Positions 38,875 to 50,418 of a stretch of 64,000 bases of DNA are shown here, piece by piece. The notes beneath the pieces were generated by a model. The model had not been told where the DNA came from, did no database searches, and saw only the letters and a list, made by a program, of their open reading frames with translations. The position numbers and the translations under genes were made by a program. Source of the stretch: Granulosicoccus sp. Its GTDB lineage: Bacteria; Pseudomonadota; Gammaproteobacteria; Granulosicoccales; Granulosicoccaceae. Numbering within the stretch: the stretch's first letter is position 1; each line of letters starts with the position of its first letter. The stretch spans positions 14,084 to 78,083 of the forward strand of contig JAHDGK010000001.1 of the NCBI GenBank assembly GCA_020627685.1. Direction: 5' to 3'.

Positions 38875-40538
38875 TTGGTCGCCTCGCTCGATTTGCCAGG
38901 ATAGAACACGTCTTAGTCAAATACGGCCTAGAGCAACTGTTTTTAGAGCAAACCCGGGCTTCCGCTCTTCAGCATGTGTTTATTCTCTCTCCAACTCGTT
39001 GGATGAATCGGGAATTGCGCAGCCTTCCGCGCGGTGAGCGTTTACGCTTAGCGCTCGAAGAGCTAGGGCCAGTGTTTGTAAAACTGGGACAAGTACTGTC
39101 AACCAGACGCGACCTATTGCCGGATGATATTGGCAATGCCCTGACGCAGCTTCAAGATAACGTCAAACCGTTTTCCAGCGAAGAGGCACGTGCTGAAATA
39201 GAATCGTCGTTAGATGAATCTATTGATGTTCTTTTTAAACGCTTTGATGATACACCGATAGCATCTGCCTCTATTGCACAGGTTCATGGTGTAGAACTGC
39301 ACGACGGTACCCAAGCGATCGCAAAGGTACTACGGCCGGGAATTAAAAAAACTATCGATAGGGACATCAGCTTGATGTACCTATTGGCCGACATGGCGGC
39401 GCTGGCACTTCATGATGGAAAGCGTTTACGCCCGCGTGAAGTTGTTTCGGAGTACGAGCGAACCATCCATGATGAATTAAACCTAGTTGCAGAAGCCACA
39501 AACGCCGTGGTTTTACGAAACAACTTTAAAGATTCTAAAACCTTGTACATCCCGGAGATTTACTGGGAGTACACACGCAACACGGTCATGGTGCAGGAAA
39601 GAATTTCCGGTATTTCTATTCGTGATATTGATGCAATGGAAGCCAACGGCACTGACATGAAAAAGCTGGCAGAGCATGGGGTGGAAATTTTTTATACTCA
39701 AGTGTTCGATCATAATTTCTTTCATGCGGACATGCATCCTGGAAATATTTTTGTCTCGCGAGAGAATCCTGATCATCCGCAGTACATTGCTGTAGATTTC
39801 GGTATCGTTGGATCCTTGACCGAGGAAGATCAACGATATATTGGTGAAAATCTTTTAGCGTTTTTCCAGCGTGACTATCGACGCGTAGCACAGCTGCATA
39901 TCGATTCCGGGTGGGTGCCCAAACACACGCGTGTCAGCGAATTAGAAGCAGGTGTTCGGGCGGTGTGCGAACCTATTTTCGATAAACCCTTATCGGAAAT
40001 CTCCTTTGGAGATGTATTGCTAAATCTATTTCATATAGCCCGACGATTTGAAATGGAGGTGCAGCCACAATTAGTTTTACTGCAAAAAACCTTACTCAAT
40101 ATTGAAGGGCTGGGTAGAGAGCTTTACCCCGATCTTGACTTATGGGCTACTGGCAAACCGTTTTTAAAACGATGGGTGGTCAAGCAAAACAATCCCCAAA
40201 CCGTGATAAAACGATTTGTAGATCAAGCCCCTATGCTTCTAAAAATCATGCCTGACATGCCGATGCTGGTTCATGATTATTTGAAACTGCAAAATCAGTC
40301 GATGAGTGAAGGGCGACATTCCTTCGAGCACAATCAATATTCATCAAAAAGCAGCGCTTCAGGATCTGGAAGATCACTGCACTACAGTATTACTGGCGCC
40401 GCTCTTGTGGTGTCCTCTGCGTTGTTGGGTAGTGCTGGAATTATCAGTGGGCAAGATTCCACTTCAAGCTGGGTATGGTTAGCGGGTGTCTTCGGAGCGG
40501 CGCTGCTAATACTCGGTTTATTTAAAGCTAAGCGTTAG
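38871..40538 (+). CDS. ubiB: UbiB atypical kinase/ATPase
   Basis: This 555-residue ABC1/ADCK-family protein is needed for ubiquinone synthesis. The KxGQ motif is in GPVFVKLGQVLSTRRDLLP, the alanine-rich loop in ASASIAQVHGVELHDG, and metal-binding segments in NFFHADMHPGNIF and AVDFGIVGSL. Two C-terminal hydrophobic helices (ITGAALVVSSALLGSAGII and VWLAGVFGAALLILGLF) anchor it in the inner membrane. It starts at TTG within ubiJ's stop (TTGA). Confidence 0.95.
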   Translation: MIGRLARFARIEHVLVKYGLEQLFLEQTRASALQHVFILSPTRWMNRELRSLPRGERLRLALEELGPVFVKLGQVLSTRRDLLPDDIGNALTQLQDNVKPFSSEEARAEIESSLDESIDVLFKRFDDTPIASASIAQVHGVELHDGTQAIAKVLRPGIKKTIDRDISLMYLLADMAALALHDGKRLRPREVVSEYERTIHDELNLVAEATNAVVLRNNFKDSKTLYIPEIYWEYTRNTVMVQERISGISIRDIDAMEANGTDMKKLAEHGVEIFYTQVFDHNFFHADMHPGNIFVSRENPDHPQYIAVDFGIVGSLTEEDQRYIGENLLAFFQRDYRRVAQLHIDSGWVPKHTRVSELEAGVRAVCEPIFDKPLSEISFGDVLLNLFHIARRFEMEVQPQLVLLQKTLLNIEGLGRELYPDLDLWATGKPFLKRWVVKQNNPQTVIKRFVDQAPMLLKIMPDMPMLVHDYLKLQNQSMSEGRHSFEHNQYSSKSSASGSGRSLHYSITGAALVVSSALLGSAGIISGQDSTSSWVWLAGVFGAALLILGLFKAKR

Positions 40539-40561
40539 CCCTATATAGCTAACAGCATTTG

Positions 40562-41746
40562 TCAGCGTAGTTGACATTGGGACTCTGGTTCGTCAATGCC
40601 CAAGGTGTCGACGTAGTGTTTAGGGTGTAGGAACTTTGGCATAGGTGCAATCGCTATTACTGCATCTGGCGTTGATAACAAAATGGGTTGTCTAAGTTGA
40701 TTGTTCCAATGACGTATCGAGCCACGCGTCCCCTTGTAAAGATCCACCTGAGATGCGGGGTCTTGCAGCACTGCAAGTAAATTCAAGTCGTCCCCTTTCT
40801 GCCGACTGTTGATGCTGTTACTAATCAGTTTTATAGCACTCCATGCAGCAAACTCAGCATCGGTCATTGATATTTGAGAACTTAAAGGCTCGCCTGTTTT
40901 GAAGGTTCGATAGCGTTCATTGAGTTGTGGTGCGCCGTAACGCTCAAGCGAGAAATGCCAGCTTGCTGGGGTGAGTCCTACATCACCAACAACGGGTCTT
41001 GCGCTTCGAGTGCTGTATTGCAAATAACGTCCGTAGTCTTTTTGTGAGTCGATGACTGCAACAACATCGTATGAGATCCCGCCGGTTATAAATTCGGGTT
41101 TGTTTTCATCTCTGTCATCCGGGTGGTGTGACAATGAGAAGATGCGCTGATCGACTACCGTTGCACCGAATTTCTTTAAACTGACCAAGAGTGTTTTAGC
41201 ACGTTCAGTATCTTTCTCTGAAGGGCCTTGTATGACTAAGACTTTTCGCCAACCCCGATAGACGAGAAATTGACCTAAGGCGTCGAAATACATTTGATCG
41301 GAAGGGATAGTGTGAAACACATGCGTAAGGCATAGTGTATCTCTTAACTGCGCATCGCTATGGCGTACGTTGAATGCGATCAGTTTTAGTTTGTTGGTGA
41401 TCTGAGCAACCTGCTCCATAGTGTCCAACGGCAAATCTAAAATAAGTAAACTTGAAGGAATAAGCTCTTTAAGTTGATCATCTAAATTACGTTCCGCATC
41501 AAGCGTTAGCTGATGAATATTTGCATTAATACCTAGTGTTTTGAACAGCGTGGATGATTCATACACGGCGAGTTCGACGGCTCTAAGCACCGGACGATCT
41601 GGTTTTACAGTAATGCCTGCAAAGCTTTTTCCGGAGTTTTTTCTATCCTCCGAGCTTGACGTGATTATCGTGATATCAAAGTCGTTGGAGACTGCCGGAG
41701 CCGATAAAAAACAGCATGCCAGAAGTATCAATTTGTGAAGCTTCAA
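40562..41746 (-). CDS. Periplasmic substrate-binding protein associated with PQQ-dependent catabolism
   Basis: This 394-residue protein has a signal peptide (MKLHKLILLACCFLSAPAVS) and a type-I periplasmic binding fold (VLRAVELAVYESSTLFKTLG, GWRKVLVIQGPSEKDTERAK, YDVVAVIDSQKDYGRYL). It resembles the ABC-type substrate-binding family found beside PQQ-dependent dehydrogenases. No ABC permease or ATPase gene is present in the window. It overlaps the beta-propeller gene by ATGA and is the last gene of the four-gene minus-strand unit. Confidence 0.82.
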   Translation of the reverse strand: MKLHKLILLACCFLSAPAVSNDFDITIITSSSEDRKNSGKSFAGITVKPDRPVLRAVELAVYESSTLFKTLGINANIHQLTLDAERNLDDQLKELIPSSLLILDLPLDTMEQVAQITNKLKLIAFNVRHSDAQLRDTLCLTHVFHTIPSDQMYFDALGQFLVYRGWRKVLVIQGPSEKDTERAKTLLVSLKKFGATVVDQRIFSLSHHPDDRDENKPEFITGGISYDVVAVIDSQKDYGRYLQYSTRSARPVVGDVGLTPASWHFSLERYGAPQLNERYRTFKTGEPLSSQISMTDAEFAAWSAIKLISNSINSRQKGDDLNLLAVLQDPASQVDLYKGTRGSIRHWNNQLRQPILLSTPDAVIAIAPMPKFLHPKHYVDTLGIDEPESQCQLR

Positions 41747-42750
41747 TCGAATACCTCCACAGAGTGTGGGACGAGCCCGGTACGACTGGTTTTAAGTGGG
41801 CGCATCTTTTGAACATCAATTAAAGTGACATCATCTGAAAGCCCGTTGAGTACAAACAACTGTTTGTCGTCGGGGGTTAACGCAAGGCCCCACGGACGAC
41901 GCCCTACCAGTATGTATTTAAGTATTTCACGTTTGGCGGCGTCAATGATAACAACGTGGTTCGCAGAGCCTAAGGCTACGAACGCGGTGTCTCCGGTTTG
42001 ATTAAACAGAATATCCACCGGGGTAAGTTGTTCACTACGAAAGCCTCGAGGAGCAAAAATGATTTCATCGATCTTTTCGAAACTGTTTGTATCAAATATC
42101 TCTACGCGACTACCCATTTCGGATGACACCCACAGTTCGGTATTGCGAATGGATAAGCGCCGTGGGCGTAGGTTGGTAATAATGATGTCAATAGCTGAGT
42201 AGTCGGTTCCGTCGAAGACATGGACCAATCCTGCGTTTTCTGATGCAATGAAAATCAGATTGCCATCGTCGGTCAATGCAATGCCGTCAGGCTCCAGCCC
42301 TGTCGCTAGATAAGCCAGGATGTTGCCTGAGCGAACATCAATTACCGTGGCTTTAGAAGCGCCTTCATTAGAGACTATTAATCGTTCACTTGCGGTATGG
42401 AAAACCAAGTACATGGCGCCAGGCACATCCTGGTAAGTTCGTATAATTTGTCGTTTAGTCAGATCAAACTCAACGACCTTGGCGTCGTCTGAACAGGCGA
42501 TATACAACGAATTATTCGCCTTGTTTTGAGCCATTCCCCTTGGTCGATTGCAGATAGGAACAAGCTCTTGATTTTTCCCATTGTCGTCCATGAAAACGAG
42601 ATTGCCGGAGCGCTCGTTACTGATGGCAACGGTTGCGGAGTACGCTGGTAGACTAAAAGCCAATAACGCTATCGTATTGGCCAAGGCGTGCGATGCCACA
42701 CGTAAGATATGCTTTATACCTGACAAGCGTTTTGCACTGCCTGATTCCAT
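41743..42750 (-). CDS. YVTN-type beta-propeller protein associated with PQQ-dependent catabolism
   Basis: This 335-residue exported protein has a signal-like segment (ALANTIALLAFSLPAYSA) then repeated YVTN/lactonase-like blades: NNSLYIACSDDAKVVEFDL, ERLIVSNEGASKATVID, GNLIFIASENAGLVHVFD, and QLFVLNGLSDDVTLIDV. The family is known as a companion of PQQ-dependent alcohol catabolism, but its activity is not defined. It is translationally coupled to the downstream binding protein and lies 60 bases from the cytochrome gene. Confidence 0.85.
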   Translation of the reverse strand: MESGSAKRLSGIKHILRVASHALANTIALLAFSLPAYSATVAISNERSGNLVFMDDNGKNQELVPICNRPRGMAQNKANNSLYIACSDDAKVVEFDLTKRQIIRTYQDVPGAMYLVFHTASERLIVSNEGASKATVIDVRSGNILAYLATGLEPDGIALTDDGNLIFIASENAGLVHVFDGTDYSAIDIIITNLRPRRLSIRNTELWVSSEMGSRVEIFDTNSFEKIDEIIFAPRGFRSEQLTPVDILFNQTGDTAFVALGSANHVVIIDAAKREILKYILVGRRPWGLALTPDDKQLFVLNGLSDDVTLIDVQKMRPLKTSRTGLVPHSVEVFD

Positions 42751-42809
42751 AGACTTTTAAGCGCTATCCTTTATGGTGTTGTTTTAAGCTCGCGCCGCTA
42801 TTGTATTGG

Positions 42810-43130
42810 TCAGAGGCTTGGCTCTTTAACAGTCAATTCGAATGCAGCATACCAGGCCGCCAGATTTTTAATGTCCTCTAACGAGAGTGCCTGAGCAATG
42901 ATGCTCATGCGACGATCCTGACGCATACCTTTTTGATAATCAACCATTGCTTTTTCAAGGTAATAAGCGCCTTGTCCAGCTAGGTTTGGAGACTCGGGAT
43001 CTTTTGCAATGCCGTTTTTACCGTGGCAAACGGAGCATTGGGATGACAGTGCCTGGCCTTTCGCTAAATCGGCCGAGTGGCCATGTGCGCTCACTAGGAG
43101 TATGCCAAGACACAAGAGCAAACTTTTCAA
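42810..43130 (-). CDS. Periplasmic class I cytochrome c
   Basis: This is a small c-type cytochrome with a signal peptide (KSLLLCLGILLVSAHGHSA), one haem site CSVCHGKNG and a distal methionine in the RRMSIIAQALSLEDIK segment. The ORF track starts at a TTG at 43163. A second TTG at 43130 is preceded by GAGAAGG and begins the signal peptide, so I use 43130, giving 106 residues. It is the likely electron acceptor for the upstream quinoprotein-type dehydrogenase. Confidence 0.88.
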   Translation of the reverse strand: MKSLLLCLGILLVSAHGHSADLAKGQALSSQCSVCHGKNGIAKDPESPNLAGQGAYYLEKAMVDYQKGMRQDRRMSIIAQALSLEDIKNLAAWYAAFELTVKEPSL

Positions 43131-43151
43131 CGTGTTTTTCCTTCTCAAAAT

Positions 43152-43175
43152 GCCCCGGCCCAAAATGGCCGAGGC
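43152..43175 (-). promoter_or_regulatory. Stable hairpin between dehydrogenase and cytochrome genes
   Basis: Read on the minus strand, GCCTCGGCC and GGCCGGGGC form a 9-base stem (one G-T pair) with a 6-base loop. It lies 16 bases after the dehydrogenase stop and just before the cytochrome ribosome site. There is no T-run, so an RNA-stabilising or attenuating role is more likely than full termination. Confidence 0.5.
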
Positions 43176-43191
43176 TGTTTAACAGCTAAAC

Positions 43192-44442
43192 TTATGATCC
43201 TTCGTAAGAGATACGGTAAATCGCTCCGGCATAATCGTCTGAAATAAGGATTGATCCGTCTTTCATCTGAGTGACTGACATTGGGCGGCCATCGTATTCA
43301 CCGTTTTCATTTAGCCAACCTTCTGCGAAAGGTTCCATTGTTGCATTACCTTCAGCATCAATAGAGGTGAACATGACGCGTGCACCACACGGTGTCGTTC
43401 TATTCCAGGAACCATGTTGAGCCGAAAAGATTCCGTTTTTATATTTAGCAGGGAATTGCTTTCCGGTATAGAACGTCATGCCTAAGTCCGCACAGTGTGC
43501 TGTGGTTTCAACAATAGGATGAACGATATCGTCGGGTACTTCCTGAGTGTCATAGCCAAAGTCGGAAACTCGAACTGTGCCGCCACCGAACCAAGGGTGT
43601 CCAAAATGCTGTCCCGCGGCTGTCTGGCGATTTAACTCACCTGGAGGTATATCATCACCCATGCCGTCCACTTGATTGTCTGTCCACCATAACTCTCCGG
43701 TTACCGGATGAAAATCATGCCCGACAGAATTTCTAACGCCGTAGGTGTATACCTCCCGGTTAGATCCGTCGCGATCCATTCTGATAATTCCACCGATGCC
43801 TTGTTCAGCGTACAAATCAGCTTTTTCAGGTGGAGCAACGTTAAAGGGTTGGCCCAGTGAAATATAGAGTTTGTTGTCCGGGCCAATATCCACAACTCGC
43901 GCAGTGTGGTTATAGCTTTCCTCTTCAACGGGCACTAGCTGTCCTTTTGGAACTATGTCCACGGCAACAACATCAGGACCTTCGTAGAAGAACTCAGCGG
44001 CCGGAAACATACGTACATGGTTTCTTTCAGCAATATATAGAAAACCATCTTTGCTAAAGCGAACACCGTTCGGGACATCAAAACTCAATGATGGTGCGAA
44101 GTCTTTAACTTCATCGGCAACACCGTCGCGATCACGATCAGACACAACCCAAACCTTATCCTTTCGAGTGCCGACAAAAAGCACAGTTCCCTGCGGCGCC
44201 ATTGCCATATCTCTTGCATCGGGGACAAGCGCGTAAAGATCAATCTTGAAGCCGCTAGGCATCTTGACGTTTTGCAGAATCTTTTTAATGTTTTCGGCTT
44301 TCTGGCCACCTTGCTCAATAAAGGTGTGGTCGTCCATTGTTTTGCCAGACGTTGCAAATACACCGATGTTTGCAGTGGCCGCGGCTGATATCGCCATGCC
44401 CGCTACCAACGCGGCTATTTTCGTCAACTTCATTTTAGTCAC
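43192..44442 (-). CDS. PQQ-type soluble sugar dehydrogenase (glucose/sorbosone dehydrogenase family)
   Basis: This 416-residue periplasmic protein has a signal peptide (MKLTKIAALVAGMAISAAATA). The six-bladed propeller shows DLYALVPDARDMAMAPQG, FDVPNGVRFSKDGFLYIAER, the catalytic/base region ESYNHTARVVDIGPDNKLY, YGVRNSVGHDFHPVTGELWW, and QHGSWNRTTPCGARV. Relatives oxidise aldose sugars or sorbosone with pyrroloquinoline quinone, passing electrons to a cytochrome. It starts at GTG 44442 with GGAGGG five bases upstream. It leads the minus-strand module with cytochrome c, beta-propeller and binding protein. The PQQ synthesis genes are not seen here. Confidence 0.87.
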   Translation of the reverse strand: MTKMKLTKIAALVAGMAISAAATANIGVFATSGKTMDDHTFIEQGGQKAENIKKILQNVKMPSGFKIDLYALVPDARDMAMAPQGTVLFVGTRKDKVWVVSDRDRDGVADEVKDFAPSLSFDVPNGVRFSKDGFLYIAERNHVRMFPAAEFFYEGPDVVAVDIVPKGQLVPVEEESYNHTARVVDIGPDNKLYISLGQPFNVAPPEKADLYAEQGIGGIIRMDRDGSNREVYTYGVRNSVGHDFHPVTGELWWTDNQVDGMGDDIPPGELNRQTAAGQHFGHPWFGGGTVRVSDFGYDTQEVPDDIVHPIVETTAHCADLGMTFYTGKQFPAKYKNGIFSAQHGSWNRTTPCGARVMFTSIDAEGNATMEPFAEGWLNENGEYDGRPMSVTQMKDGSILISDDYAGAIYRISYEGS

Positions 44443-44908
44443 TGTTACCCTCCAGTTTTAATTCGTAGAGTGAGTGTTAGATATCGAAGATACCTTCACA
44501 AAGTTCTACTCCTATAAATTTCCACATTCAAGAGATTTATGGTTTGGGGGCAGGGTTGTGCTATTGCCTATGGTTTAAGCTTTGATTAAACGGCACTCGT
44601 CTTTTTCTGGTTTAAGCCTGTGCTTACTTGCGCTAACTAGTTGATTACTCTGACTACCACGGCGAGCGTCAGAGAATTGTTATTAGTGATAGGTTATGGG
44701 ATACAAGCGGTATTTGCCGTTGGGATGTAACCTGTGTATGGGTATAAAGTAGGGGAAAAGCGTTTTAAGGCAAAAACGTTTAACTTTTGTTATACCCAAA
44801 AGCGGAAGTTACGCAAGCTATAGCGCTAAATCGGGTAAACAGCTGACTTCTGGCAGTAAGTTTGCAATCACGGTTATTACCATTTCTTAGTGATAGCTGT
44901 AATTCATC
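44443..44908. other. Divergent intergenic region with long imperfect palindrome
   Basis: About 466 bases lie between the sugar dehydrogenase operon and a small plus-strand gene. No ORF is convincing. The region holds an imperfect palindrome at 44740-44797 and is A/T-rich in parts, so it likely contains promoters for both sides. Confidence 0.5.
44740..44797. repeat. Long nested inverted repeat
   Basis: The outer arms GGGTATAA (44740-44747) and TTATACCC (44790-44797) match exactly. AAAGT just inside the first arm can pair with ACTTT before the second, and the inner arms CGTTTT (44761-44766) and AAAACG (44773-44778) also match. It could form a nested stem-loop or bind a dimeric regulator. Confidence 0.45.
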
Positions 44909-45217
44909 ATGCAAACACAATCAGTTGACCCGCTTTGGGACGAAGGTATCTCATCCTACCTGTTAGGCCAGTACGAAAGCCTTCAAGCGCCCCTCACGAT
45001 GGAAAATCTTCAGGAGTTTGCTGTAGAGCAGGCCGTCCGCGTCGGTGATTTGCTGGAGACCCTGTTTATCATGGCTATCTATGGCGAATGGACATATTCC
45101 GACGCTAATGGCGAAGCTCAGGTATTAGATGAATCAGCTCTTGATGACTTTTATGCCAAAGGGCGTCTAAGCCAAGAAGATCTCGCTGCATTCAGTGGAG
45201 TTTGGGCTCCGGCTTAA
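44909..45217 (+). CDS. Small acidic protein of unknown function
   Basis: I do not recognise this 102-residue protein. It is acidic and probably helical (MENLQEFAVEQAVRVGDLLETLFIMAIYGEW), with no signal peptide or cysteine. The tail ends LSQEDLAAFSGVWAPA. It has its own upstream region with a nested inverted repeat and converges on the carbonic anhydrase gene with 10 bases between stops. Coding status rests on the clean ORF, plausible composition and lack of a better gene on the other strand. Confidence 0.65.
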   Translation: MQTQSVDPLWDEGISSYLLGQYESLQAPLTMENLQEFAVEQAVRVGDLLETLFIMAIYGEWTYSDANGEAQVLDESALDDFYAKGRLSQEDLAAFSGVWAPA

Positions 45218-45227
45218 CACCTGACCT

Positions 45228-45899
45228 TTAAGCGTGCTGGCTATCGCCGTCAGCTTCCTCAAAGAACTCGACTTTTCCTGTCTCCAGTGAATATTCTGCG
45301 CCGATTATTTGCAGTCCGTCATTGGAGACCAGATCGTTCAAAACCTCAGAGTTAGTCGTTAGCTGCGCAACGGATGCGTGCACATTGGCTCTTGTAGCCA
45401 GAGAGATGAGCTTAGACTCATCCGTTTCCTCTTCTACCAATTTCTCCACTGACGGTTGAATGCAATCCACGATGGATTGCAAATTTGGCGATAGAGCAGA
45501 CGAGGGTTGTTTAAGCTCTCCTACAGTTGCCTGTATTGCGCCACATTTCGTGTGACCCATCACCACGACTAAACGCGCGCCATGTTGCACTGCCGAAAAC
45601 TCAACGCTACCAAGCAATGAGGGTGTAACAATATTGCCTGCTACTCGAACAACAAACAGATCGCCTAAGCCCTGATCGAACACAATTTCGGCCGGTACAC
45701 GAGAGTCAGAGCACCCGAGAATAATGGCAAAGGGGTGTTGAGATTCCAGTACCTGTGCACGTCTGGACTCATTAGTCTCAGCTGATATATCTCGAACGTT
45801 AGCGACAAATCGTTGGTTGCCGGCTTTTAGTCGATTCAATGCGTCATTTGCGGTAGTCATGCATTGCATTATAAGCGATTGAATAATGTCATTGCTCAC
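45228..45899 (-). CDS. Beta-class carbonic anhydrase
   Basis: This zinc enzyme interconverts carbon dioxide and bicarbonate. The zinc-ligand motifs are LGCSDSRVPAEIVFDQG (Cys, Asp-Arg dyad) and VMGHTKCGAIQATVG (His, Cys). DLFVVRVAGNIVTPSLLGSVEF is also typical. The first ORF start is a GTG at 45899; ATGs at 45869 and 45860 (MTTANDALNRL) are equally plausible because no site is strong. It is divergent from uvrD and convergent with the small unknown gene. Confidence 0.94.
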   Translation of the reverse strand: MSNDIIQSLIMQCMTTANDALNRLKAGNQRFVANVRDISAETNESRRAQVLESQHPFAIILGCSDSRVPAEIVFDQGLGDLFVVRVAGNIVTPSLLGSVEFSAVQHGARLVVVMGHTKCGAIQATVGELKQPSSALSPNLQSIVDCIQPSVEKLVEEETDESKLISLATRANVHASVAQLTTNSEVLNDLVSNDGLQIIGAEYSLETGKVEFFEEADGDSQHA

Positions 45900-48891: not shown

Positions 48892-50418
48892 GTGAAATTC
48901 GATTTCATAGTCATAGGTGCAGGCTCAGCCGGATGCGCGGTGGCTGCAGGTTTAGCAAAGGCCCGTATTGGTTCAGTTTGCGTACTCGAAGCGGGTCCTA
49001 CAGATGCAGTGCCGCAGGTGAAAATTCCATTCGGTCTACTTCACACTATGGGTAGTAAACGCGACTGGAATTTTAAATCGACGTCGCAATCGAACGCGAA
49101 TAATCGAGTCTTCAACGTCAATCGCGGGTACATGGTTGGCGGTTCCAGTTCGATAAATTCAATGGTTTGGTTCAGAGGGCGGGCTGATGATTTTGATAAT
49201 TGGCAACAACCGGGTTGGCGTTGGAATGACGTTGAACGGGACTTTATCGAAATAGAAAAGCTGATTCAGCCTCAACAGATTCCAACGCCGCATCCATTGT
49301 CTGTGGCCTTTGCAAAGTCCTTTCTTGCCAACAGTGATGCACCGCCTACTCCAGATCGCGAGAGCGCGGGATTATTCGACACCAATAGTAGAAATGGGAG
49401 ACGCTGGTCTGCAGCAGACGCTTTTTTACGACCAGCAATGCGTTCACATGGACTACAGATCATAACGGGTGCCAATGTAAACCGAATCTCTTTTGAAGAG
49501 GGTCGTGCAAGGCATGTTGAATTGGTCGATGGCAGGACGTTGAGTGCTCGTTGTGGCATTGTGTTGAGCGCGGGTAGTATCGGGTCACCCTCAATACTGA
49601 TGCGTTCTGGTATCGGACCTGCTGCTCAATTGTCTGAGCTCGGTATTAGTATTAAAGTTGATTCACCGCAAGTGGGTCAGAACCTGTCGGATCATCCGGT
49701 CATTGGTGTTCATCATGAAGGGCGCAATTCAGGATATGGTCTGGTTTGGAATCAGAGTTTGCAGTGGGCGCTATCCCCATTTCAATGGCTCACCCAACGT
49801 AACGGCAGGTTAACATCGAATTTTGTCGAAGCTGGTGCGTTCTTTAGGGTGAACCCTATCACTGACGATGATGACAGGCCAGAATGCCAAGTGCACTTTA
49901 TTCCATACATGATGGGGTTTAAAGGTAAGTCTATAACCACTGGCTCAGGCTACTTTGCCGACGTCGGTGTCTGTCGACCTGTCTCCCGGGGCTCGCTGAC
50001 TTTGTCGTCATCTGACCCCCGCGTGGCACCTAACATCGACTTGGGCGTGCTTAAAGAAGAACAAGATGTTCAAATCCTGATCGGTGGTTTCCGACGTTTG
50101 CGTGAGCTGCTCGATAAAGCTCCAATGGGTGACAGCCGGGCACCCGAAGTTTATCCGGGTGCCGCAGTTAGTAGCGATGATGAGATAACAGAACATATTC
50201 GAGCTCGATCTGGGACCGCCTATCATCCTGTTGGCACACTAGCTATGGGGGAGCAAGGAACGCCTGTCACCAACACTTTGCAATTACGTGATGTTGATGG
50301 ATTGTGGGTGGCCGATGCTTCAGTAATGCCAAGTATCACATCGGCTAATACAAATGCACCTAGCATGATGATTGGCCATAGAGCCGCTAAATTAATTTTG
50401 CGAGAGGTGAAGTACTAA
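48892..50418 (+). CDS. GMC-family FAD oxidoreductase (choline-dehydrogenase-like)
   Basis: This 508-residue flavoenzyme oxidises an alcohol group. FAD-binding FDFIVIGAGSAGCAVAAGL is at the N-terminus, NRGYMVGGSSSINSMVWFRG follows, and the C-terminus contains the catalytic His/Asn region TAYHPVGTLAMG and LWVADASVMPSITSANTNAP. The start is GTG. The substrate is unknown; choline, other alcohols or polyethylene glycol are typical of relatives. No betaine aldehyde dehydrogenase is beside it, so betA is not assigned. Confidence 0.92.
   Translation: MKFDFIVIGAGSAGCAVAAGLAKARIGSVCVLEAGPTDAVPQVKIPFGLLHTMGSKRDWNFKSTSQSNANNRVFNVNRGYMVGGSSSINSMVWFRGRADDFDNWQQPGWRWNDVERDFIEIEKLIQPQQIPTPHPLSVAFAKSFLANSDAPPTPDRESAGLFDTNSRNGRRWSAADAFLRPAMRSHGLQIITGANVNRISFEEGRARHVELVDGRTLSARCGIVLSAGSIGSPSILMRSGIGPAAQLSELGISIKVDSPQVGQNLSDHPVIGVHHEGRNSGYGLVWNQSLQWALSPFQWLTQRNGRLTSNFVEAGAFFRVNPITDDDDRPECQVHFIPYMMGFKGKSITTGSGYFADVGVCRPVSRGSLTLSSSDPRVAPNIDLGVLKEEQDVQILIGGFRRLRELLDKAPMGDSRAPEVYPGAAVSSDDEITEHIRARSGTAYHPVGTLAMGEQGTPVTNTLQLRDVDGLWVADASVMPSITSANTNAPSMMIGHRAAKLILREVKY

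Follow-up and report, generated by a model that had tools for sequence, protein, structure and literature searches.

A four-gene unit encoding a predicted sugar quinoprotein

We analysed a 64,000-nucleotide stretch of the marine bacterium Granulosicoccus sp. (the window; contig JAHDGK010000001.1, here C105, positions 14084-78083), taken from an assembly of 4.93 Mb that is 99.5% complete (GCA_020627685.1). Positions given for the unit count from the first letter of the window. Four minus-strand open reading frames (ORFs) were found at 40562-44442 and encode, in order of transcription, a putative pyrroloquinoline quinone (PQQ)-dependent sugar dehydrogenase (gsdh), a cytochrome c, a beta-propeller and a type-I periplasmic binding protein (Table 1). 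An earlier note on this DNA had placed these four together, and both the ORF check and the family assignments confirm it. The first two gaps are of 28 and 59 nt, while the propeller and binding protein genes overlap slightly, the TTG start of the latter overlapping the stop codon of the former. All four products carry signal-peptide-like N-termini. The cytochrome scores 24.9 bits against PF00034 (cut-off 21.3) and contains one CxxCH motif; Pfam and NCBIfam label the propeller as YncE/YVTN-type and the binding protein as Peripla_BP-like. Seven other genomes of the order show these genes in identical order and the Litorivicinaceae have them rearranged, so the unit is not a chance assemblage.

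Table 1. Features of the unit and its flanks, in window positions
Feature	Position	Strand	Basis
Predicted AA12-like six-bladed PQQ-dependent sugar (aldose/pyranose) dehydrogenase, exported (gsdh)	43192..44442	-	PF07995, model, AA12 folds, site residues
Class I-type cytochrome c with one haem, probably taking electrons from the dehydrogenase	42810..43163	-	PF00034, position behind gsdh
Seven-bladed YVTN-type beta-propeller, putative divergent PedA2 homologue	41743..42750	-	TIGR03866 match, conserved positions
Type-I periplasmic binding protein, putative divergent PedA1 homologue	40562..41746	-	TIGR03863 match, conserved positions, model fold
Conserved upstream site CTTGAA-N14-GGAGTAGAACT, ~60 bases before gsdh	44502..44532	-	Conservation across loci
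Weak hairpin resembling a terminator, downstream of the binding protein gene	40533..40554	-	Pattern scan only; site number not above shuffles

The modelled dehydrogenase is closest to fungal AA12 enzymes

The gsdh product scores 55.7 bits against PF07995 (GSDH; gathering cut-off 25) and was modelled with a predicted local distance difference test score (pLDDT) of 88.6. A PDB search with the single sequence gave no match, whereas the family profile and the model did; fungal AA12 enzymes filled ranks 1-4 of the Foldseek search with the model (E 5e-20 to 4e-19). All 12 matched positions of the AA12 PQQ/Ca2+ site are kept (R77, H179, R237, N238, N256, D259, E269, H316, H343, W346, N347 and R386), and the site residues are present in 30-31 of the 31 sequences in the family alignment. 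The register was set by alignment for TrAA12 and by spacing, with no superposed structure, for CcPDH, the equivalence R386=R621 being the least certain. On this register His179 would be catalytic, Arg237-Asn238 would lie at the quinone and Asn256, Asp259 and Glu269 on the metal side, with the PQQ carboxylates predicted to contact Arg77, His316, His343, Trp346-Asn347 and Arg386. An AA12-type WN loop takes the place of the sGDH contacts Lys377, Arg406 and Arg408, in an sGDH alignment that spans only part of the chain.

Judged by its model, the dehydrogenase is nearest to the fungal AA12 PQQ pyranose dehydrogenases (CcPDH, 6JT5/6JWF; TrAA12, 6H7T/6I1Q/6I1T) and not to Acinetobacter sGDH. Like them it has the HxxWN loop of CcPDH and a likely coupling to a cytochrome. 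Unlike them it is bacterial, is only 17-19% identical over the fold, is accompanied by a separate cytochrome c gene where AA12 enzymes have a fused cytochrome b domain, and in its pair-linked forms has the clade-specific cysteines C317 and C352. With sGDH and Asd/YliI it shares Pfam membership, the six-bladed propeller, the catalytic His and the Arg-Asn pair, but these are weaker structural matches and the carboxylate contacts look AA12-like. Given the AA12 fold match and the kept site residues, a PQQ enzyme acting on sugars is the best assignment, and the description in the earlier note of a periplasmic PQQ oxidation module with two 'PQQ catabolism' companions is supported. The genome has a second, full-length PF07995 gene (431 bits). 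Literature searches turned up no paper linking Granulosicoccus to PQQ and none combining sorbosone dehydrogenase, lanthanide and cytochrome c.

The companion pair, and ped and pqq genes elsewhere in the genome

Despite scores below the cut-offs, the best NCBIfam matches of the binding protein and the propeller are TIGR03863 (PQQ_ABC_bind, PedA1) and TIGR03866 (PQQ_ABC_repeats, PedA2), respectively. Of 54 positions conserved in the non-window members, the binding protein retains 48; the propeller retains 44 of 65 family-conserved positions. The binding protein sits on a long tree branch, and the top PDB folds for its model (pLDDT 86.9) are receptors of ATP-binding cassette (ABC) transporters of the Leu/aromatic-acid type, together with AmiC. 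By sequence, the companion pair are divergent homologues of PedA1 and PedA2, the periplasmic components of the lanthanide-linked PedA1A2BC transporter.

A profile search found no PQQ_ABC_ATP-model ATPase within the window. ABC transporter genes had earlier been taken as absent, which holds for the locus and the window and fails for the genome: pedC and pedB lie at C105:127869-129388, about 75 kb from the unit on the same contig, with products above the family cut-offs (PedB, TIGR03864, 309.2 bits; PedC, TIGR03861, 401.1 bits). They are followed by genes for the PedF cytochrome, a PedG-like binding protein, a SoxYZ-like carrier and relay metallohydrolase 1, and further on by a PQQ alcohol dehydrogenase (TIGR03075, 784 bits) and a response regulator with a kinase. 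Lanthanide enzymes of the XoxF/PedH type carry an Asp two residues after the catalytic Asp. The alcohol dehydrogenase of the ped cluster has this Asp-x-Asp motif (DYD, in GWDYDGVNEF) and is thus of the lanthanide type. The search for ABC genes and a quinoprotein alcohol dehydrogenase elsewhere in the genome accordingly yielded one ped cluster, which goes most of the way to refuting the earlier note by its own criterion, although the conserved site before gsdh gave no sign of one regulon with the unit. The search for pqq genes found pqqBCDE on another contig (C95).

A canonical pedA1A2 pair (TIGR03863, 478.4 bits; TIGR03866, 494.3 bits) is located about 37 kb from the unit on the same contig. 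The ped parts of this genome are those of the Pseudomonas putida ped cluster, with pedA1A2 moved away (PMC12997753, PMC6839425). The canonical pair (L017:9190-17062; C105:about 87190-95060) forms one gene run with a tungsten-type aldehyde:ferredoxin oxidoreductase set that includes ferredoxin, a flavin adenine dinucleotide (FAD) oxidoreductase, a MoaD-like protein and MoaA, an association repeated in several genomes of the order (L052, L072, L078 and L085).

The likeness to the PedA1A2BC system of P. putida KT2440 (LutA/LutE/LutF in Methylorubrum) lies in the homologous binding protein and YVTN propeller, in the pedBC genes, PedF, SoxYZ-like carrier, relay hydrolase and Asp-x-Asp enzyme of the same genome, and in the ABC genes that adjoin the orthologous loci of the Litorivicinaceae. 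The window pair differs in its sub-cut-off scores, in having no ABC genes in its cluster, and in its attachment to a six-bladed AA12-like dehydrogenase with its own cytochrome c.

Two dyads conserved in the order and beyond

The survey of the order covered 48 genomes, mostly metagenome assemblies, in which absences are weak evidence except in those near complete. Of the 48, 14 encode a window-type binding protein (57-75% identity), and eight, the present genome included, keep the order gsdh-cytochrome-propeller-binding protein intact. At the other window-type loci the pair stands without gsdh (L059-L062), is cut by a contig end (L063) or has a broken binding protein gene (G035). The gsdh gene (66-90% identity) was found in 17 genomes, with a cytochrome c gene directly behind it in 17 of 17 loci. 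Nine gsdh-cytochrome dyads lack a pair at their side, and for five of these no window-type pair was detected anywhere in the genome. In four genomes the pair and the gsdh-cytochrome genes lie at separate places. Since the cytochrome is always behind gsdh and the pair is sometimes apart, the unit is composed of two dyads, gsdh-cytochrome c and propeller-binding protein.

The pqq genes adjoin the unit in G040 and lie within 8 kb of it in G012. PQQ alcohol dehydrogenase homologues with no detected pqqC occur in 13 of the 48 genomes, some of them near complete (G045, G033 and G022), and these 13 probably rely on external PQQ or salvage. As far as can be judged, the in-frame stops within the PQQ alcohol dehydrogenase matches lie upstream of the true start. 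Large genes beside gsdh in G012 and G010 were considered as TonB receptors and rejected, being a DAO/GCV_T protein and a patatin.

Across the wider class, gsdh homologues of 37-47% identity are nearly all without pair or cytochrome, and the nearest (55-57%) has the cytochrome and no adjacent pair. PedA1-type proteins outside the order adjoin a pedB- or pedC-like ABC gene in 17 of 17 loci. Of 16 PQQ alcohol dehydrogenases encoded next to pairs of this kind, 15 carry the Asp-x-Asp motif. A scan of 84,980 genomes placed window-type binding proteins in Granulosicoccaceae and Litorivicinaceae (56-67%), followed by more distant PedA1 proteins. In the Litorivicinaceae (HIMB30, M30B64, AH-657-M20, AG-915-K04 and others), gsdh (80-87%) and the cytochrome c gene, the latter directly behind gsdh in seven loci, stand divergent beside the window-type pair. 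Curated family scores identify pqqBCDE after the pair in HIMB30, and in six other loci the gene lengths follow the same pattern, up to a PqqE-like protein at its end. PqqA-like peptides with the C-terminal sequence ...CGCEINMYAPAEGDRPLF lie between the binding protein gene and pqqB (L241:7363-7473, L247:7302-7391). Four loci have pedBC-like ABC genes inside the cluster, and the PedC-like permease of HIMB30 is over its family cut-off. A 556-aa ABC protein behind pqqE in some Litorivicinaceae was rejected as a PQQ exporter, having a soluble ABC-F layout with no membrane domain. The pair-linked dehydrogenases of both families form one clade (Shimodaira-Hasegawa-like approximate likelihood ratio test 100) with the unlinked ones outside, which may reflect horizontal transfer.

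When nine such genomes were searched with TIGR03075, seven gave no eight-bladed PQQ dehydrogenase that scored above BamB-like levels. An enzyme of the Asp-Leu-Asp type is encoded by AH-657-M20, and G418 has a partial TIGR03075 match in a 782-aa frame. The genome of HIMB30, a cultured ocean isolate, measures 2.17 Mb and is estimated at 2.26 Mb when complete. The Asp-Leu-Asp motif (HDVWDLD) also marks a PQQ dehydrogenase subfamily, just under the TIGR03075 cut-off, that was seen in L065, L066, L253, L254 and L265; in the first four (Granulosicoccaceae, Limibaculum and Marinobacter) its neighbours are a two-haem cytochrome and a PedA1A2-type pair.

A receptor pair that may work with PedBC in trans

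We consider it probable, with appreciable room for doubt, that the unit is a periplasmic sugar-oxidising quinoprotein operon with a specialised PedA1A2-type receptor pair that uses PedBC in trans. The AA12-like dehydrogenase would bind PQQ and a metal ion and oxidise an aldose or another carbohydrate, with a His assisting the transfer of hydride to PQQ; the cytochrome c encoded next to it would take up the electrons and feed them to the respiratory chain. The companion pair would capture a ligand needed by the quinoprotein system and would cooperate with the one PedB/PedC ABC-2 complex of the genome, which the canonical pair would also use. PedA1A2BC is required for growth of P. putida at nanomolar La3+ (PMC6839425). 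If that biology carries over, the ligand would be a lanthanide or its chelate; otherwise it would be PQQ or a metal-PQQ species. Analogy thus points to a lanthanide, and gene order may point to PQQ.

Several observations favour the sharing of PedBC: PedA1 homologues co-occur with PedC over the 48 genomes (33/4/3/8, Fisher p=1.6e-4); up to three receptors accompany a single permease; and the sole broken pair, with two stops in the binding protein gene (L064), belongs to G035, a 93% complete genome in which the searches found neither PedC nor a PQQ alcohol dehydrogenase nor gsdh. Because the Litorivicinaceae orthologues of the unit cluster with pedBC-type and pqq genes, a transporter-linked receptor appears more likely than a free sensor. 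These genes, with pedBC on the same contig here, also leave the earlier suggestion that the system as such has no ABC transporter unsupported.

Several observations weigh against this proposal. The binding protein reaches 317.8 bits where TIGR03863 demands 413.6, and the propeller 240.8 where TIGR03866 demands 287.3. No ABC gene adjoins the unit in the window lineage, and PedC belongs to the exporter-type ABC-2 permeases, with which a type-I binding protein would not usually be expected to pair. The association of the window-type pair with PedC alone is not significant (12/2 versus 24/10, p=0.47), and genome counts and co-occurrence tests were uncorrected for relatedness. The metal loops of pair-linked and unlinked dehydrogenases show no difference and no added acidic residue, and with no eight-bladed PQQ dehydrogenase detected in HIMB30 and M30B64 a lanthanide role would lack its usual customer there.

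It is somewhat unlikely, in our judgement, that the pair acts independently of any ABC complex, sensing substrate or loading PQQ or metal into the dehydrogenase as a chaperone. In eight linked Granulosicoccaceae genomes the pair stays by gsdh-cytochrome with the PedC gene elsewhere and the locus free of ABC genes; AmiC, a sensor, is among the fold matches; the pair-linked dehydrogenases share D78, C317 and C352, beside PQQ-site residues; and the binding-protein-like XoxJ and MxaJ are maturation factors (PMC12997753). MxaJ, XoxJ and PedG likewise combine a binding-protein fold beside a quinoprotein and cytochrome c with a proposed non-transport role, but they belong to another family (SBP_bac_3), and a PedG-like gene is present separately in the ped cluster of this genome. 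The unit includes no histidine kinase or regulator, and the nine dyads with no adjacent pair imply that the pair meets no general maturation need. Together with the PedA1-family/PedC co-occurrence, the four Litorivicinaceae loci that combine an orthologous pair with ABC genes make the sensor or chaperone role, suggested in the earlier note in place of a transporter part, the less likely reading.

That the pair and the ABC complex handle PQQ itself, by export after synthesis or by capture and delivery, with no metal involved, also seems unlikely. The position of the pair directly before pqqBCDE in Litorivicinaceae, the exporter type of PedC and the lack of a detected eight-bladed PQQ enzyme in HIMB30 and M30B64 are consistent with it, as is PQQ salvage, likely to be common given the 13 genomes with no detected pqqC. 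However, P. putida that has lost pedA1A2BC can still grow by means of the Ca2+ quinoprotein PedE, itself dependent on PQQ (PMC6839425), and another ABC protein has been proposed as the PQQ exporter in Methylorubrum (PMC7391723).

We find it improbable that the AA12-like dehydrogenase is itself lanthanide-dependent, with metal supplied by the pair and PedBC. A complete PedA1A2BC-type set does stand beside it in genomes with no detected eight-bladed lanthanide enzyme, and other such pairs adjoin Asp-x-Asp enzymes, but the metal-loop residues are identical in unlinked relatives with no adjoining pair and the characterised AA12 enzymes use Ca2+ (PMC6881789, PMC6881810). A hitch-hiking pair, with no relation to the dehydrogenase and kept close to it through chance or transfer, would suit the four genomes with separated dyads and the single two-family clade, but is highly unlikely in view of co-location in two families with different gene order and co-occurrence with gsdh over the order genomes (12/2 versus 5/29, p=6e-6).

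Upstream site and neighbouring genes

The conserved site before gsdh is found, with at most three mismatches, in seven of eight pair-linked loci and upstream of no unlinked gsdh locus; its conservation suggests that it is probably a promoter or regulator site. A regulon that would join the unit to ped and pqq through this site was rejected, as the site was not found upstream of those genes. Close upstream of the unit, on the plus strand, is a 102-aa ORF with no Pfam match (window 44909-45217). Genes for a beta-class carbonic anhydrase (45228-45899, minus) and a glucose-methanol-choline (GMC) oxidoreductase (48892-50418, plus) lie near the unit and show no sign of membership.

Implications for PedA1A2BC-type systems

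PedA1A2BC and Lut systems are regarded as lanthanide importers for lanthanide alcohol dehydrogenases. HIMB30 and M30B64 have the cluster, yet an eight-bladed PQQ dehydrogenase was detected in neither. This leaves two readings: PedA1A2BC-type systems are not coupled to lanthanide alcohol dehydrogenases, or lanthanides are used by a six-bladed AA12-like quinoprotein. That the Litorivicinaceae enzyme is a lanthanide enzyme is distinctly unlikely; if true, it would to our knowledge be the first outside the eight-bladed alcohol dehydrogenases. In a softer version, PedA1A2BC-type systems would serve quinoproteins in general, with a ligand that is not, or not only, a lanthanide. In HIMB30 the four-part homologues accompany only a six-bladed sugar quinoprotein, which separates the transporter from the alcohol dehydrogenase and makes the ligand testable. 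If this is true, AA12-type PQQ sugar oxidation would extend to widespread marine bacteria.

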